Positions 1,826 through 10,938 of a stretch of DNA of 44,949 nucleotides are shown here, piece by piece (position 1 is the stretch's first letter; each line of letters starts with the position of its first letter). Position numbers and translations under genes: made by a program. The notes below the pieces were generated by a model. The model was not told the origin of the DNA and did not search any database. It was given only the letters and a program-made list of their open reading frames with translations. The DNA lies in the NCBI RefSeq assembly GCF_001636845.1, contig NZ_LITT01000016.1, forward strand, positions 1 to 44,949, in the 5' to 3' direction. Source of the stretch: Clostridium ljungdahlii. GTDB lineage: Bacteria > Bacillota > Clostridia > Clostridiales > Clostridiaceae.

Positions 1826-2068
1826 TTACTTATATGACATCAAATTGTAACAAATCATTTATATACTTGAAACGACGTAAAGAATTGTTTTAATGATAAT
1901 AGTTTATTCATATGTAGGGCACAAAAGTAAATTAATATCCTGTCTGTGTCTGCGGTTGCAGGGCACGTAAAATTTAAATGCAACCATCACAAGATAGTAT
2001 ATTAATTGATTTCCTTTAAAGCATTCTAATACAAAATAGGCACCTATTATTTAGGGTGTCTATTTTGT
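1826..2068 (+). ncRNA. Putative small RNA, copy 1: promoter, H-type pseudoknot, terminator
   Basis: The element starts with a promoter-like block shared with copy 2 (TTACTTATATGACAT ... TATATACTT). An H-type pseudoknot follows: stem 1 TGTGTC (1945-1950) with GGCACG (1962-1967), and stem 2 GGTTGCA (1954-1960) with TGCAACC (1979-1985). Loops are 3, 1 and 11 nt. It ends in a strong hairpin, ACAAAATAGGCACC (2031-2044) with GGTGTCTATTTTGT, forming a terminator. No ORF fits inside. The full copy at 3652-3901 keeps the same architecture with matched base-pair changes, so RNA structure is under selection. It could be a stand-alone sRNA, or a leader that attenuates the lipoprotein gene at 2240. No named RNA class was recognised. 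Confidence 0.6.
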
Positions 2069-2159
2069 ATTCTGGATTGCTTCACTATATAGTGGCATAA
2101 ATAAAGGTAGCTGGCAATTTATTTAGAACATATAAGTTTTTACTGTGACTCTTATAACC

Positions 2160-2235
2160 TTTTTAGTACGAAATATTTCGAAAATATGATAATATTAACT
2201 CATAGGATTGGTATATGAAAGATTTTATGGGGGTG
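2160..2235 (+). promoter_or_regulatory. Repeat A, copy 1: promoter and leader with palindrome CGAAATATTTCG
   Basis: This block runs from TTTTAGTACG through a perfect palindrome (2169-2180), an extended -10-like TGATAATAT and on to the GGGGGTG ribosome site of the lipoprotein at 2240. Nearly the same 75 bases precede the membrane protein at 4455, and a truncated copy lies at 5719-5786. In the second copy both palindrome ends change together (C to T, G to A), which preserves symmetry. A repressor operator is the likely reason. Confidence 0.6.
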
Positions 2236-2239
2236 TAAA

Positions 2240-2731
2240 ATGAAAAAGGTAGTATTGGTAATCTTATCTTTGTTTATTATGCTTACAGGTTGTTCTATAA
2301 CAAAAACACAACAGACTAGTTCGCAAAAACAAGCATCAGAGTCACAGCAGTTATTGCAACCTAAGCAAGTAGTGGAAAATTATTTTAAGTATCTTAATGA
2401 GAAGAATAAAAAGGCTTTGTTTACAACAATAACTGAATGGCAGAAGGCGCCAAATGTGGAATGGGGATTTGATGTTCGTGAATATATTAAGCTTATTTCT
2501 GTTAACGAAGAAACGAATCCTGTCTTTAAAGAGGGGTATCTATCTAATGGTAGAGGAAGTATTAATGGTGTCAAGAAAGAAAATGTAAAAGTATATAAAG
2601 TTGACTATGATGTAAAATACAAAGAAGATGCTATTACAGCTGAAGACAATGGGAAAAATACATCATGGTTCTTCGTAGTTAGAAAAGATAAAAATTCACC
2701 TTGGCTTATAGATTCACAAGGCCAGCCTTAA
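2240..2731 (+). CDS. DUF4829-like lipoprotein
   Basis: The 163-residue product begins MKKVVLVILSLFIMLTGCS, a lipoprotein signal with lipobox LTGC (Cys18), so it should be anchored on the outer face of the membrane. A Ser/Gln-rich linker follows, then one NTF2-like domain with VVENYFKYLNEKNKKAL near the start and TSWFFVVRKDKNSPWLID at the end. The last motif is characteristic of the clostridial DUF4829 group as remembered. Function is unknown. The ribosome site GGGGGTG and the upstream promoter repeat are shared with the unrelated membrane protein at 4455, suggesting common control or duplication of the promoter cassette. Confidence 0.75.
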   Translation: MKKVVLVILSLFIMLTGCSITKTQQTSSQKQASESQQLLQPKQVVENYFKYLNEKNKKALFTTITEWQKAPNVEWGFDVREYIKLISVNEETNPVFKEGYLSNGRGSINGVKKENVKVYKVDYDVKYKEDAITAEDNGKNTSWFFVVRKDKNSPWLIDSQGQP

Positions 2732-2761
2732 TTTTATGTAGAATCAAGAGCTGATGGTAAT

Positions 2762-2913
2762 ATGGAAATAGATCTAAATAGAGAAAATTATATTACTATT
2801 AGTAAATTTTAAAACTTAATGATAGGTTAATAAAGGCTGTTAGAGGGACAAGTGGCGTAAGAAATTTGGAACTTTTGAAATCATCAGTTGAAAATTCTAA
2901 AGCTGCTTTTTAA
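2762..2913 (+). pseudogene. Decayed Doc (Fic-family) toxin, N-terminal remnant
   Basis: From the ATG at 2762 the first frame reads MEIDLNRENYITISKF and then stops. After a one-base shift the next frame reads LKLNDRLIKAVRGTSGVRN and then LELLKSSVENSKAAF before a stop at 2911-2913. Joined, these match the start of Doc-type toxins, where a helix is followed by GxSGVRDxxLLESAL and then ATF. The catalytic HPFxxGNKR region is entirely absent. It is therefore both frameshifted and truncated, and cannot AMPylate or phosphorylate. Its tail shares bases with the terminator of the antitoxin at 1191-1436, a likely former partner. The assignment rests on motif similarity. Confidence 0.65.
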
Positions 2914-3065
2914 TAATAAGTGTCTTTTATTCTGGAAAAATAGCTGGATTTATACTTCAACTTAAGTTTGTTTTCCCAAAACTTAAGTAAAGAATATATT
3001 ATACTATTAAAAAACTTCTAATTCGTGCTAAATAAAAATTTATATTGAATAACTAATGGTATTAA

Positions 3066-3287
3066 TTATTTCTTGTTATTGAGAACAAGTTTTGCAAAAG
3101 CTTCATATGATGAGTCATCGATTACTGTTACATCCCTTAGTTCTTCAGAAACAGCCCTAAAAAAACATGATGGGAGTGCACCATCATTTAGACAAATTTT
3201 AATACAGAGATTACAACCTTGGTCATGATTACGTGGGTTAAACTTACAACTATAATTTTTACATGTACAAAAATCAGTATTAGCCAT
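3066..3287 (-). CDS. Small cysteine-rich protein (DUF6485-like)
   Basis: The 73-residue protein carries eight cysteines in its first ~45 residues: CTCKNYSCKF, then GCNLCIKIC, then SCFF. This resembles the DUF6485 family of short Cys-rich, probably zinc- or iron-sulfur-binding proteins. The ribosome site AAGGAGG lies at proper spacing before ATG 3287. It stands alone between repeat elements on the minus strand. No function is known; the metal-binding role is inferred only from cysteine spacing. Confidence 0.7.
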   Translation of the reverse strand: MANTDFCTCKNYSCKFNPRNHDQGCNLCIKICLNDGALPSCFFRAVSEELRDVTVIDDSSYEAFAKLVLNNKK

Positions 3288-3579
3288 AAAAAGTTCCTCC
3301 TTAAATGAGCAGCACGAATTAGTTAAGTATCAAAGAAAAGTATAATAAATTATAAATGATTACTCAATTATATAACAATAAGTTGTTACCTTTTTTTCAT
3401 AAAAGGTATTTAAAATACTATATCAGATGTATAAATACTAACTATAATATTATAAAGTGGTTATTATACAATGAAATTATCTAAATGAATTTTGATTCTC
3501 ACAGCAATGTAATATTTTTATCAATAAGTTTGCAAATCGATGCTTTTACGCAGATGGTAGATGAAAACATGATTAAACA
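3288..3579. other. Intergenic stretch, AT-rich, possible coding relic
   Basis: No recognisable gene. A 33-codon frame at 3485-3586 (starting MNFDSHSN, ending MVDENMIKQR) runs up to the repeat-C hairpin but has no ribosome site. It may be the 3' relic of a lost gene. Confidence 0.3.
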
Positions 3580-3642
3580 AAGATAAGCACTAGTTAAAGC
3601 CAGAGCTTATTCTTATATTATTTACATGATATTCAAAAAATA
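3580..3642 (+). repeat. Repeat C, copy 1 (hairpin plus conserved tail)
   Basis: ATAAGCACTAG ... GAGCTTAT forms a terminator-like hairpin, followed by a ~38-base tail (TTCTTATATTATTTAC...) that is nearly identical in the copy at 4978-5041. Its conservation beyond the hairpin shows duplication rather than chance. It ends immediately before small-RNA copy 2. Confidence 0.7.
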
Positions 3643-3651
3643 AATAAATAA

Positions 3652-3901
3652 TTTACTTGTATGACATTAAATCGTAACAAATACCGTATATACTTATAAG
3701 TGTCCTAAGGAAATAGCCTTAGCGAAAATGAAAATAATGCATTTACATATATGAAAGAAAAGTGAAGGTAGTTATCCTCCTCGTGTCTGTAGTTGCAGGG
3801 CACGTTAAACTTAAGTGCAACTGCCACAAGAAAGTATATAAAATTAGATCCCCAATTATTATTGTAGAATAGGCATCCGTCATCTAGGGTGCCTATTTTG
3901 C
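3652..3901 (+). ncRNA. Putative small RNA, copy 2: promoter, H-type pseudoknot, terminator
   Basis: The promoter block TTACTTGTATGACAT ... TATATACTT is shared with copy 1. A 5' hairpin CTAAGG/CCTTAG lies at 3705-3722. The pseudoknot has stem 1 CGTGTC (3782-3787) with GGCACG (3799-3804) and stem 2 AGTTGCA (3791-3797) with TGCAACT (3816-3822). Loop lengths 3, 1 and 11 are identical to copy 1. Against copy 1 the outer stem-2 pair changes from G-C to A-T on both sides, and stem 1 begins with C-G instead of a T-G wobble. The terminator hairpin is GAATAGGCATCC with GGGTGCCTATTTT. The gene at 4048 starts 147 bases later. Confidence 0.6.
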
Positions 3902-4347: not shown

Positions 4348-4379
4348 GAGAGTTTTGGAGAAATTCAGGACTCTTTTTT
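4348..4379 (+). terminator. Weak terminator after the 92-residue gene
   Basis: AGAGT and ACTCT flank a ~16-base loop and are followed by six T residues, directly before repeat A copy 2. The stem is short. Confidence 0.4.
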
Positions 4380-4450
4380 AGTATGAAATATTTCAAAAAT
4401 ATGATAATATTAACCTACGTAATTGGTATATGGAAGATTTTATGGGGGTG
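4375..4450 (+). promoter_or_regulatory. Repeat A, copy 2: promoter and leader with palindrome TGAAATATTTCA
   Basis: Matches copy 1 (2160-2235) over its whole length, ending in the same GGGGGTG ribosome site. The palindrome at 4384-4395 is perfect, although both end bases differ from copy 1, so the two changes compensate each other. Confidence 0.6.
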
Positions 4451-5718: not shown

Positions 5719-5786
5719 ATTTTAGTACGAAATATTTAAAAAATATGATAATATTAACTCATGGAATTAGTATATGGAAGATTTTT
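5719..5786 (+). repeat. Repeat A, copy 3, truncated and fused to a small-RNA tail
   Basis: The sequence follows repeat A from TTTTAGTACGAAATATTT to GGAAGATTTT, then switches directly into the middle of the small-RNA repeat at TTAAACTTAAG. The palindrome is broken (ATTTAA instead of ATTTCG). There is no gene start where copies 1 and 2 have theirs. The short T/A run at the junction suggests a microhomology deletion. Confidence 0.75.
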
Positions 5787-5880
5787 AAACTTAAGTGCAA
5801 CTGCCACAAGAAAGTATATAAAATTAGATCCCCAATTATTTGTAGAATAGGCATCCGTCATCTAGGATACCTATTCTGCA
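5785..5880 (+). repeat. Small-RNA repeat, copy 3: 3' half only
   Basis: From TTAAACTTAAG onward this matches copy 2 almost base for base, including TGCAACTGCCACAAG and the terminator AGAATAGGCATCC ... GGATACCTATTCT. The 5' half, including both 5' pseudoknot strands, is missing. The near identity implies a recent duplication followed by deletion. It could still terminate transcription from the adjacent repeat-A promoter, giving a ~100-nt RNA. Confidence 0.75.
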
Positions 5881-6197
5881 TATAGTAAAAGTAGAGTTGA
5901 ATTGTTCAATGAATTTCATCCTTTTTTATACTGTAATACTAATGCAATTTAAATTTTTGTTAAATCGTCTTACATTAAAAAGAACTTATTCAATAAGAAG
6001 CAGCATATAATTATATTTATTACAATAATAATTACAAGAATTAACAAATACAAGTAAATTTAAGCATTGAAATTGCTATATTTAGCGATAATACTTTCAA
6101 CACGTTGGTTTATTAAAAGTAAGTAAAAGTGTAAATAGTGTTTTTAAATGGTAAATCAAGTTAAATCTGTTTCGAATATATAATTAGGGGTGATAAA
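5881..6197. other. Intergenic, no gene seen
   Basis: This AT-rich stretch holds no supported ORF or stable hairpin. Its last ~30 bases (TTTCGAATATATAATTAGG ...) are shared with the leader of the paralogous small gene at 15765 and probably contain its promoter. Confidence 0.5.
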
Positions 6198-8675: not shown

Positions 8676-9305
8676 ATGATTTTGGGAATTAGTGCAAGCG
8701 GCAGAAAAGATGGAATTACCAGCAAGACAGTGAAAGCTATATTGGAAGCAAGTAATTCAGAGTATGAATACATTTCATTATCAGGCAAGAGAATTAATGG
8801 TTGTGTTGGATGTACACTTTGCGCCGCCGATAATCAGTGCAAAGTTAAAGATGACTGGAATGAAATAGCAGAAAAAATGTTAATGGCAGATGCAATTGTT
8901 TTTGGTGCACCTAATTATGGATGGACTATAAATGCCCTTGGTCATGCATGCTTGGAAAGAACTTTTTGCTTTCGACATAGAGGAGTTTTTAGTCTATCCG
9001 GCAAGATTGGTATAGCAGTTAGTTCTAGTTATAGTGAGCAAGGAGCCGGTTTAGTCAATATGATTATAAAAAAAGCTATGATGGGTAATAAGATGTCAGT
9101 AGTTGGTACTATATCCGCTCATGGATATTCCCAATGTTACACATGTGGATTTGGTCACAAATGTAGTGTAGGGAATGTGGTTAAGAAACATGGTCCTTTG
9201 GATAAAATCGAAAAGAAACATCTTCCGCCTAGTTTTGAAGAGCAGGAAGATACAATCCTTCAAGCTAATAGTATGGGAAAATTATTGGGGTCTTTAGGAG
9301 TCTGA
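8676..9305 (+). CDS. Iron-sulfur flavoprotein (Isf-like NADPH-dependent FMN reductase family)
   Basis: ATG 8676 has AGGGG nine bases upstream; the ATG at 8667 touches that site. The 209-residue protein opens with a flavodoxin-like FMN loop, ILGISASGRKDGITSK. A compact cysteine motif follows, CVGCTLCAADNQC (C-x2-C-x2-C-x5-C), as in iron-sulfur flavoproteins that bind one 4Fe-4S cluster beside FMN. GAPNYGWTIN forms the second flavin loop. A further CYTCGFGHKC pair near residue 160 is less usual and may hold extra metal. Such proteins move electrons in anaerobes and reduce oxygen species or quinones; the partner here is unknown. A bidirectional terminator follows. Confidence 0.8.
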   Translation: MILGISASGRKDGITSKTVKAILEASNSEYEYISLSGKRINGCVGCTLCAADNQCKVKDDWNEIAEKMLMADAIVFGAPNYGWTINALGHACLERTFCFRHRGVFSLSGKIGIAVSSSYSEQGAGLVNMIIKKAMMGNKMSVVGTISAHGYSQCYTCGFGHKCSVGNVVKKHGPLDKIEKKHLPPSFEEQEDTILQANSMGKLLGSLGV

Positions 9306-9314
9306 ATAAAGAAT

Positions 9315-9357
9315 AATGCAAAATAAGCACTGGTTAAAACGGGTGCTTATTTTGCAT
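9315..9357. terminator. Bidirectional terminator between convergent genes
   Basis: AATGCAAAATAAGCAC (9315-9330) pairs with GTGCTTATTTTGCATT. T-rich flanks in both directions serve the flavoprotein and the PucR-type gene. Confidence 0.85.
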
Positions 9358-9375
9358 TAGAAGATTCTAAATTTA

Positions 9376-10938
9376 TTAATCAGTTTTTTTTAGCTGCTCA
9401 AGCATGTCCATAATAAGAAATGATAATTGTAATTGAAATATAGTCTGATAGTCTGTAAAGTTTAGTCCTGTCAATTCTACAATTCGATTAAGTCTATATT
9501 TTATTGTATTATAGTGAGTAAATAATGATTTAGCAGTTGGTACAATTTCTAACCTATTGGTAATATATGCTTTTATAGTTTCTAGTAACATGTGGTATTT
9601 GTCTGATTCTAGCTCTTGCAAAGTTTTTATAGCTGGATGAATCAAAGGTGACAAATCCTTTTGATTGGCATAAGTCAAGAAAACGTGTTGAAGAATAATA
9701 TCTGAATATTTAATAATGGGTTTAGAAAAATGTAATTTCCAACCGGTATGCAGTGCTTCACAAGCAGAACGGTAACATTCAGGCAATGAATAAAGATTGC
9801 TAAATAGCAAGCTAATACCAGCACGACAATTAAAAGAATCTAATAAATTTTCAAAATTAGTCCATTCAAATTCTGTGAATGGTTCATTTGATTTATAATC
9901 ATAAAGAGCTACAAGGTGATTATCGTAATATACAATGTTATCTCGTCCCAGGAAGTTTTGAAGTTTTCTTTTAAATAGAAAAGCTTTGTCTTTGTCTTGT
10001 AAAAGGTCATTTTTTAGTTCAATAACTATCAATATCAAATTATCATATAACTTCAAATTAAATTGGTGTATGCGCTCATTAATTGCATTACGATCATATA
10101 ATTTTTCATTTAATAGGGATGTTAAAAATGATTCTATTAGGGGAGAACAAGAAGCTTGTTCTGCATGATTATTAGTTAAAAATTGGCAAAGACAATTTCC
10201 TATGAGTGTAATAATCTGTTGATCAGTTTCAGATATTGACTTATTATATGCTAATGTTTTAAGATATCCTACAGGAGTATTATTGTATAAAATACGAAAA
10301 ACTAATTGGTCATGATTTAAAATACCCTTTTCCCATATTAAAAGAGGTTTTTGCGGATATGTTCTTTCATCAGCTAATCCATCCATCATTACAGAGTTAA
10401 CATATTCTTCTGTTACATATCCTTTAGATAATGTCCATTCCCATAAAGGTTCATTAATAACGGTGTTACCGCCAGCATGAGCAATAAAACAAAGTGAAAC
10501 ATCTACCAACAAGAGAGGATTCCCTAATAACTCCAGGCCTAAATCAAGCACTTCCTGCAAAGTGGAAGTATTCTTATTTAATTGCATAATTTTGAGAGCA
10601 CATTCAGATACATACATAGCATTATCAAAGTAATCCTGTACTGAGTTAAATAGCATATTAAGGTTTGTACTAGGTTCAACGTAAATATAGTCACATTTAT
10701 GGGCTAAAGAATCGTATGCAAAAGTGTCACTATCCTTTATCAGTAAAAATGTTGTTGGTACAGTTGTTTGAACAGATGCTAGTTGAGAAGCTTTACCTAT
10801 GTATATACAGTCTGAATGTAAGTTACTTAAATTGTTATTTAACAAACGAAAAGTACGCACCTCATGATAACATTTACATACGGAAGTTGGTTTAAATTCT
10901 GAAAGAAATTCTAATAAGCTGCTAATTTTTACTGCCAT
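9376..10938 (-). CDS. PucR/CdaR-family transcriptional regulator
   Basis: The 520-residue protein starts at an ATG with GGAGGAATTATT upstream. It has an N-terminal PucR-type domain (about 1-125), a middle region with the CdaR GGDEF-like fold (about 280-410) and a C-terminal helix-turn-helix. The last reads SLFTHYNTIKYRLNRIVEL and TGLNFTDYQTIFQLQLSF, the PucR HTH_30 signature. Such regulators activate catabolic genes when a substrate is sensed by the N-terminal domain. It is divergent from the MFS/oxidoreductase/dehydrogenase operon at 11213, so that operon is its probable target, through the palindrome at 11037 or elsewhere in the 274-base gap. Confidence 0.85.
   Translation of the reverse strand: MAVKISSLLEFLSEFKPTSVCKCYHEVRTFRLLNNNLSNLHSDCIYIGKASQLASVQTTVPTTFLLIKDSDTFAYDSLAHKCDYIYVEPSTNLNMLFNSVQDYFDNAMYVSECALKIMQLNKNTSTLQEVLDLGLELLGNPLLLVDVSLCFIAHAGGNTVINEPLWEWTLSKGYVTEEYVNSVMMDGLADERTYPQKPLLIWEKGILNHDQLVFRILYNNTPVGYLKTLAYNKSISETDQQIITLIGNCLCQFLTNNHAEQASCSPLIESFLTSLLNEKLYDRNAINERIHQFNLKLYDNLILIVIELKNDLLQDKDKAFLFKRKLQNFLGRDNIVYYDNHLVALYDYKSNEPFTEFEWTNFENLLDSFNCRAGISLLFSNLYSLPECYRSACEALHTGWKLHFSKPIIKYSDIILQHVFLTYANQKDLSPLIHPAIKTLQELESDKYHMLLETIKAYITNRLEIVPTAKSLFTHYNTIKYRLNRIVELTGLNFTDYQTIFQLQLSFLIMDMLEQLKKTD

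Follow-up and report, generated by a model that had tools for sequence, protein, structure and literature searches.

The window analysed here is a stretch of 44,949 nucleotides of Clostridium ljungdahlii DNA (assembly GCF_001636845.1, contig NZ_LITT01000016.1, positions 1 to 44,949), and it carries on its forward strand two related elements, copy 1 and copy 2, each of which combines an operator-like region, a -10 box, an H-type pseudoknot, a C-rich or CU-rich stretch and an intrinsic terminator. In copy 1 the operator-like region lies around TTTACTTATATGACATCAAATTGTAACAAAT (positions 1808-1860) and is followed by the -10 box TATACT (1862-1867), the pseudoknot (1946-1985; stem 1, 1946-1950 with 1962-1966; stem 2, 1954-1960 with 1979-1985), the CU-rich stretch UUUCCUUU (2010-2017), which is a candidate anti-Shine-Dalgarno seed and is predicted to be mostly paired, and the terminator (2033-2067). 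In copy 2 the operator-like region (3638-3687) and the -10 box TATACT (3689-3694) precede a 5′ hairpin, CUAAGG-AAAUAG-CCUUAG (3705-3722), which is also found in other full copies and in relatives that have no pseudoknot, and which by eye is absent from copy 1. There follow the pseudoknot (3783-3822; stem 1, 3783-3787 with 3799-3803; stem 2, 3791-3797 with 3816-3822), a C-rich stretch UCCCC (3849-3853) that is again a candidate seed, with an unpaired probability of 0.87, and the terminator (3867-3899). The -10 boxes were assigned from the letters, the terminators from the letters and a hairpin rule, and the pseudoknots from the letters and the covariation of the family. A 3′ half-copy, made of most of loop 3, the 3′ strand of stem 2, the C-rich stretch and the terminator, lies on the same strand at 5785-5882 and matches positions 176-275 of the copy 2 query with 94% identity.

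The letters and coordinates of both elements agree with the first-pass annotation, which had placed a promoter, an H-type pseudoknot and a terminator in each of them. Stem 1 reads GTGTC/GGCAC in both copies, and the compensated change that had been reported for stem 2, from GGTTGCA/TGCAACC in copy 1 to AGTTGCA/TGCAACT in copy 2, is present in the letters; it amounts to one compensated pair between two copies, which was a thin basis for that annotation. The identical loop lengths of 3, 1 and 11 hold when a sixth pair of stem 1 is counted (U1945-G1967 in copy 1 and C3782-G3804 in copy 2), and with only five stem 1 pairs the loops of both copies are 3, 1 and 12. The core string, searched with up to three mismatches, occurs at these two places of the window only, and none of 100 shuffled versions had any occurrence.

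Size, distribution and covariation of the family

A covariance model (R1), built from 27 sequences with only stem 2 given as pairs, found 145 matches in all 13 genomes of the genus, with 2 to 34 per genome, and matched one more of the 206 genomes of the taxonomic family, in collections that hold one genome per species and in searches that, over more than 40 genomes, use stricter filters and lose weak matches. With a tighter core model (R3) matches were obtained in 14 of the 206 genomes, namely the 13 of the genus and one other, and the 5 matching genomes among 391 drawn from the class were all among the same 14. The genome of the window (4.36 Mb, 65 contigs) holds six pseudoknot copies and, on contig C24, a paralogue without the pseudoknot, so that the earlier description of a two-copy family was wrong by a wide margin. 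The exact core pattern was also found in records of C. ragsdalei, C. luticellarii, C. tyrobutyricum and C. algifaecis, of strains BL-3 and cel8, of a Clostridium metagenome-assembled genome, and in nine IMG/VR contigs; a blastn search with copy 2 at E up to 1e-5 gave no match in collections of plasmid and phage records. The pseudoknot form was found in one Clostridium genus and, in a single case, outside it.

Pairing was analysed in an alignment (A4) of 131 matches from 92 sources, which gave 124 distinct copies. It took in genomes G004 and G007-G011, one stretch of G001, the window, one C. tyrobutyricum record, G019 and the nine IMG/VR contigs; left out were the own-genome copies beyond the window, all copies of G002, G003, G005 and G006, and the remaining ones of G001 and G012. 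Both stems are kept in these homologues, with standard pairs in 99.1% of 1478 cells, and double-sided changes were observed in 9 of the 12 pairs (3 of 5 in stem 1 and 6 of 7 in stem 2; 50 cells in total). None of 500 shuffles reached these covariation values, and slid versions of the stems pair in 28-50%. Since R1 held stem 2 alone as pairs, stem 1 is free of model bias. After three odd rows had been dropped (alignment A5), 114 distinct cores remained, and 65 of them were aligned separately with MAFFT, with 98.8% of cells paired, 9 of 12 pairs double-changed and, again, none of 500 shuffles reaching the values. The structural support is strong because diverged copies were added: the first set of 27 sequences gave one double-changed pair, which 474 of 500 shuffles reached too. 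The core, including its loop letters, stays recognisable across very different surroundings. We are highly confident that the RNA family to which the window elements belong is structured and under selection, as had been proposed from the two copies.

This family could not be assigned to a known class, again in agreement with the earlier view. In scans of the window and 12 further loci with Rfam 15, whose models hold no pseudoknots so that a distant riboswitch relation could be missed, no family reached its gathering score. All matches at E up to 10 stayed below threshold, and the best of them placed mir-3116 on the terminator of copy 1 (26.8 bits against a gathering score of 65, E 0.0013). The compact pseudoknot, the conserved loops and the GGGCAC and GCAAC strings recall c-di-GMP-II and other pseudoknot riboswitches, which differ in that the family described here is mostly not located ahead of a gene. 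No riboswitch family appeared in the Rfam lists, with E limits of 10 or 5, and the c-di-GMP-II assignment was dropped on the lack of an Rfam match and on the position of the copies (63 of 114 have the next ORF on their own strand), with one class of leader-like copies, described below, as a possible exception. A search of open-licence papers found no paper on this RNA family.

Promoter repeats, the CU-rich stretch and a possible mode of action

In 70 of the 124 copies a TAACA half-site lies ahead of the -10 box in the stretch examined. The self-similarity of the half-site in these 70 copies, calculated without a shuffled control, peaks at a distance of 33 bp (4.50 of 7) and then at 22 bp (3.50). 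An operator pattern, with up to three mismatches, identified 7 sites in the own genome, and all of them, including those of the two window copies and of the pseudoknot-less C24 paralogue, are at promoters of the family; the reversed control gave none. Such promoter repeats suit, and do not prove, control by a response regulator of the OmpR/PhoB type. They also resemble the Pho boxes of Bacillus subtilis. A link to phosphate (PhoP) was dropped, without a formal test, when no such array was seen by eye upstream of the pstS-like gene of the same genome. Loci L112-L171 (L120, L121, L130 and L143 among them) show a second promoter type (TTTAACCTGTACAAAATAATATAGTAACAATTGATGTATATAAT-like, with a repeat spacing of 22 bp), to which 14 of the 70 promoters belong; it precedes many tandem copies, some of which have CTCTAAAT- or CCCTAAAT-type tails.

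The majority of copies appear free-standing. At the other end of the predicted transcription unit, the pseudoknot is followed by a terminator-like hairpin in 99 of the 124 copies (3 of 124 when each was shuffled once), and where copies are in tandem, which is often the case, the promoter is placed after the preceding terminator. The 52 bases downstream of the pseudoknot contain a CU-rich or anti-Shine-Dalgarno motif in 73 of the 124 copies, compared with a mean of 29.7 and a largest value of 39 in 40 shuffles. The UCCC(C) string is also found in relatives without the pseudoknot. Fourteen of these, picked by eye, keep the promoter and the 5′ hairpin, and eight of the 14 carry the string (L036, L037, L049, L051, L098, L112, L136 and L200). 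In L036 (1550-1670), L037 (1551-1670), L051 (1525-1640) and L098 (reverse strand), and also in two other genera (G015 and G019) and C. tyrobutyricum, the string is found as the loop of an AU hairpin; the pseudoknot-less C24 copy of the own genome (C24:261208-261315) likewise carries UCCC(C). The promoter and hairpin look like an older small RNA (sRNA), to which the pseudoknot may have been added as a module in this genus.

The explanation that we prefer, and to which we give about an even chance, is that the elements encode multicopy trans-acting sRNAs that repress translation by occluding Shine-Dalgarno sequences, under the control of one regulator. An OmpR/PhoB-type response regulator would switch the sRNA genes on together, and the CU-rich stretch (a UCCCC loop in some relatives) would pair with the Shine-Dalgarno sequence of target mRNAs and so block their translation. 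The pseudoknot would present the seed, as a scaffold with a protective or protein-binding function, and the many non-identical copies would provide dose and a range of targets.

This arrangement has its models in two described systems. LhrC of Listeria monocytogenes is multicopy, all five LhrC sRNAs require the LisRK two-component system, and their CU-rich UCCC motifs bind the Shine-Dalgarno region of lapB (PMC4132741). The family described here is likewise multicopy, and its UCCC motifs resemble those of LhrC, whereas its up to 34 copies, its pseudoknot module, its prophage copies and the lack of an Rfam match set it apart. The CiaR-dependent csRNAs of Streptococcus are also multicopy, and their description gives unpaired Shine-Dalgarno-complementary regions and a TTTAAG-N5-TTTAAG promoter element whose hexamers lie 11 bp apart, at a predicted ten bases from the -10 box (PMC3091779). 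In contrast, the half-site is here TAACA/TTACA-like and not TTTAAG, the spacings are 22 and 33 bp, there is a pseudoknot, and again nothing matches in Rfam. By analogy, then, the layout appears to be a close parallel to LhrC and the csRNAs, found without a match in the Rfam scans; homology by descent to either was set aside, as no described RNA family was matched at the Rfam gathering score.

Several observations weigh against this explanation. In the stretch examined, 54 of the 124 copies are without an operator-like promoter, and the self-similarity at 11 bp (3.04) is no higher than at 13 or 15 bp. The motif set used for the CU-rich stretch was chosen after the sequences had been read, and the copies are related by descent, so that the enrichments are not independent. 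The motif is also mildly enriched 5′ of the pseudoknot (46 of 124, with a shuffled mean of 30.6 and a largest value of 37), it is found on neither side in 39 of the 124, and no UCCC is present in 6 of the 14 pseudoknot-less relatives (L031, L050, L071, L119, L159 and L185). Where the motif could be analysed for accessibility (66 copies) it is only moderately open, with an unpaired value of 0.59 against a background of 0.47 and with 48 of the 66 above background, and the seed of window copy 1 has an unpaired probability of 0.26. In 81 of 113 cases the upstream open reading frame (ORF) shares the strand of the element, so that for some copies an origin as 3′ untranslated region (UTR) is possible, and some may be 3′ UTRs, as with a 75-aa (amino acid) gene described below. 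Finally, the seed model leaves the conserved loops and the prophage copies unexplained.

The family, which has no entry in Rfam and reaches 34 copies per genome, would be an addition to the RNAs of a Clostridium group that includes gas-fermentation acetogens. Transcription start site maps have been published for C. ljungdahlii, with 125 orphan start sites reported (PMC6203783), and for C. autoethanogenum, with a class of orphan sites (PMC6873888).

Prophage copies and a possible role of the pseudoknot

Some copies of the pseudoknot lie in or near phage packaging regions (L128:1993-2400, L191:1844-2400, L108:183-1704, L106:7811-7898, L131:1758-2164 and L228:8740-9200). Seven copies (L082, L106, L128, L166, L183, L190 and L191) form a leader class with its own TTGACA/TATACT-like promoter. 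An AU-rich hairpin with a U-run lies directly 3′ of the pseudoknot in six of them (not in L106) and fails the terminator rule, and an ORF of 40 aa with an LGRK/LGRR motif follows in six (not in L166). The next gene in L128 encodes a terminase small subunit, and L228 repeats the L128 stretch; a terminase-like start comes after the 40-aa ORF in L106 and L191, and an intact terminase was not seen after L082, L166, L183 and L190. In L108 the pseudoknot is upstream of the genes for the small and large terminase subunits, and in L131 a RepA_N-type gene and an HNH gene come after two diverged pseudoknots, as does a weak match to a terminase small subunit that stays under the cut-off. No CU motif was found on either side of the prophage copies, so that the pseudoknot may serve a function in its own right. 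From its place upstream of terminase genes in some prophages, it may be a portable recognition module.

The strongest rival to the sRNA explanation starts from here. It takes the pseudoknot as the working part, which would bind a protein or a small molecule, with the chromosomal sRNAs as sponges or sensors and the CU-rich stretch as secondary. The persistence of the core and its loop letters in very different surroundings, and its presence upstream of terminase genes in some prophages without a flanking CU motif, speak for it. Against it, the promoter and the 5′ hairpin are retained without a pseudoknot in relatives from other genera and in some relatives within the genus, and none of the Rfam families scores at gathering level. 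We consider this rival possible and clearly the less probable of the two. A more specific version, which we regard as speculative, has a portable module linking the sRNA regulon with prophages: in these it would lie in a leader ahead of the packaging genes and be bound by a host or phage factor, the many sRNA copies of the host would compete for that factor or the phage copies would titrate a host factor, and RNA dosage would set prophage late expression or immunity. The strongly conserved pseudoknot, common to host sRNAs and some prophage leaders, would offer a probe for an RNA-binding protein or ligand.

Neighbouring genes, coding readings and minor observations

The leader class also bears on the reading in which the elements act mainly in cis, as leaders or riboswitches for the next gene. 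Its copies have a sigma-A-like promoter on one side and, in 6 of 7, the 40-aa ORF on the other, and in 6 of 7 an AU-rich hairpin and U-run come directly after the pseudoknot; the terminator rule is failed in all 7. Among 117 elements, the next downstream ORF shares the strand of the element in 63 of 114 cases, which is near chance, at scattered distances of 6 to 1302 bases, and many tandem copies have their promoter after the preceding terminator. The neighbours are diverse: 127 proteins match 88 Pfam families, the commonest of which, a HicB-like antitoxin, was found five times. This survey covered 127 of 165 proteins, with 17 left out (e.g., the neighbours of the low-scoring L128 and L131) and 21 removed manually, of which 6 were copies of the 75-aa protein and 15 were judged doubtful or redundant. 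For a type III toxin-antitoxin RNA of the ToxI kind, a repeat array beside a ToxN-type toxin gene would be expected; no ToxN-type toxin name was present among the 13 PADLOC families or the 25 Pfam families listed of the 88 for these 127 neighbours. A cis-acting role is improbable as the main one, and a cis-riboswitch is disfavoured for the chromosomal copies by the near-chance orientation of the next ORF.

A further alternative is that the conserved core encodes a short peptide, VSVVAGH.KLKCN, since this frame is open in 118 of the 124 copies and the core is preceded, in leader-class copies, by a stretch like a ribosome-binding site and by an ATG. However, there is no third-position bias (entropy by codon position of 0.456, 0.404 and 0.440 in 111 copies of 39 bases), 13 of the 124 copies are of a length other than 39 and 6 have an in-frame stop, the frame from the leader-class ATG is broken in 2 of 7, L142 and L035 show by eye an in-frame stop just upstream of the core and no ATG, and the paired changes in the core fit an RNA structure. 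With flat entropy, off-length copies, stops and broken frames, a small-protein gene was rejected, and we consider a coding role very unlikely. The least probable reading, in which the copies would titrate CsrA in the manner of enterobacterial CsrB, draws on the AAGGA in the 5′ hairpin and on a report in which C. ljungdahlii has CsrA and no detectable CsrB/CsrC homologues (PMC6203783), and it is disfavoured by the lack of enrichment of ANGGA (55, shuffled mean 65.8) and GGA (173 versus 177.9) in the 124 transcript windows.

In the 75-aa arrangement the order is promoter and 5′ hairpin, 75-aa ORF, pseudoknot and terminator, so that the pseudoknot lies in the 3′ UTR. It is found in the own genome at C8:93007-93785, with the ORF at C8:93392-93616 (L194:8393-8620), and also in L113, L132, L133, L154, L155 and L177. 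One copy of the ORF has an internal stop. The conserved 75-aa protein matched no family above the cut-off, and it is present in another genus (G015 and G152), where there is no pseudoknot match.

Three other features of the window were observed. A dispersed promoter-like repeat (TTTTAGTANGAAATATTT...GTATATG) is present in three copies (2161-2217, 4376-4432 and 5720-5776), the third of which ends a few bases ahead of the truncated sRNA copy at 5785. A fragment that resembles a tRNA 3′ end (AGGAGTTCGATTCTCCTAGGGACTACC) lies at 1712-1738, near copy 1, and again at L005:137-163, near a C8 copy; ARAGORN found no whole tRNA in the window, and these fragments are possibly the remnant of an attachment site. 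A gene for a Phd-type antitoxin (1191-1436, Pfam match) has no partner ORF listed beside it. In the related C8 locus, Phd/Fic-like and HicAB-like pairs, identified by reading only, lie beside the sRNA locus (L194:6452-7080 and 8832-9487).

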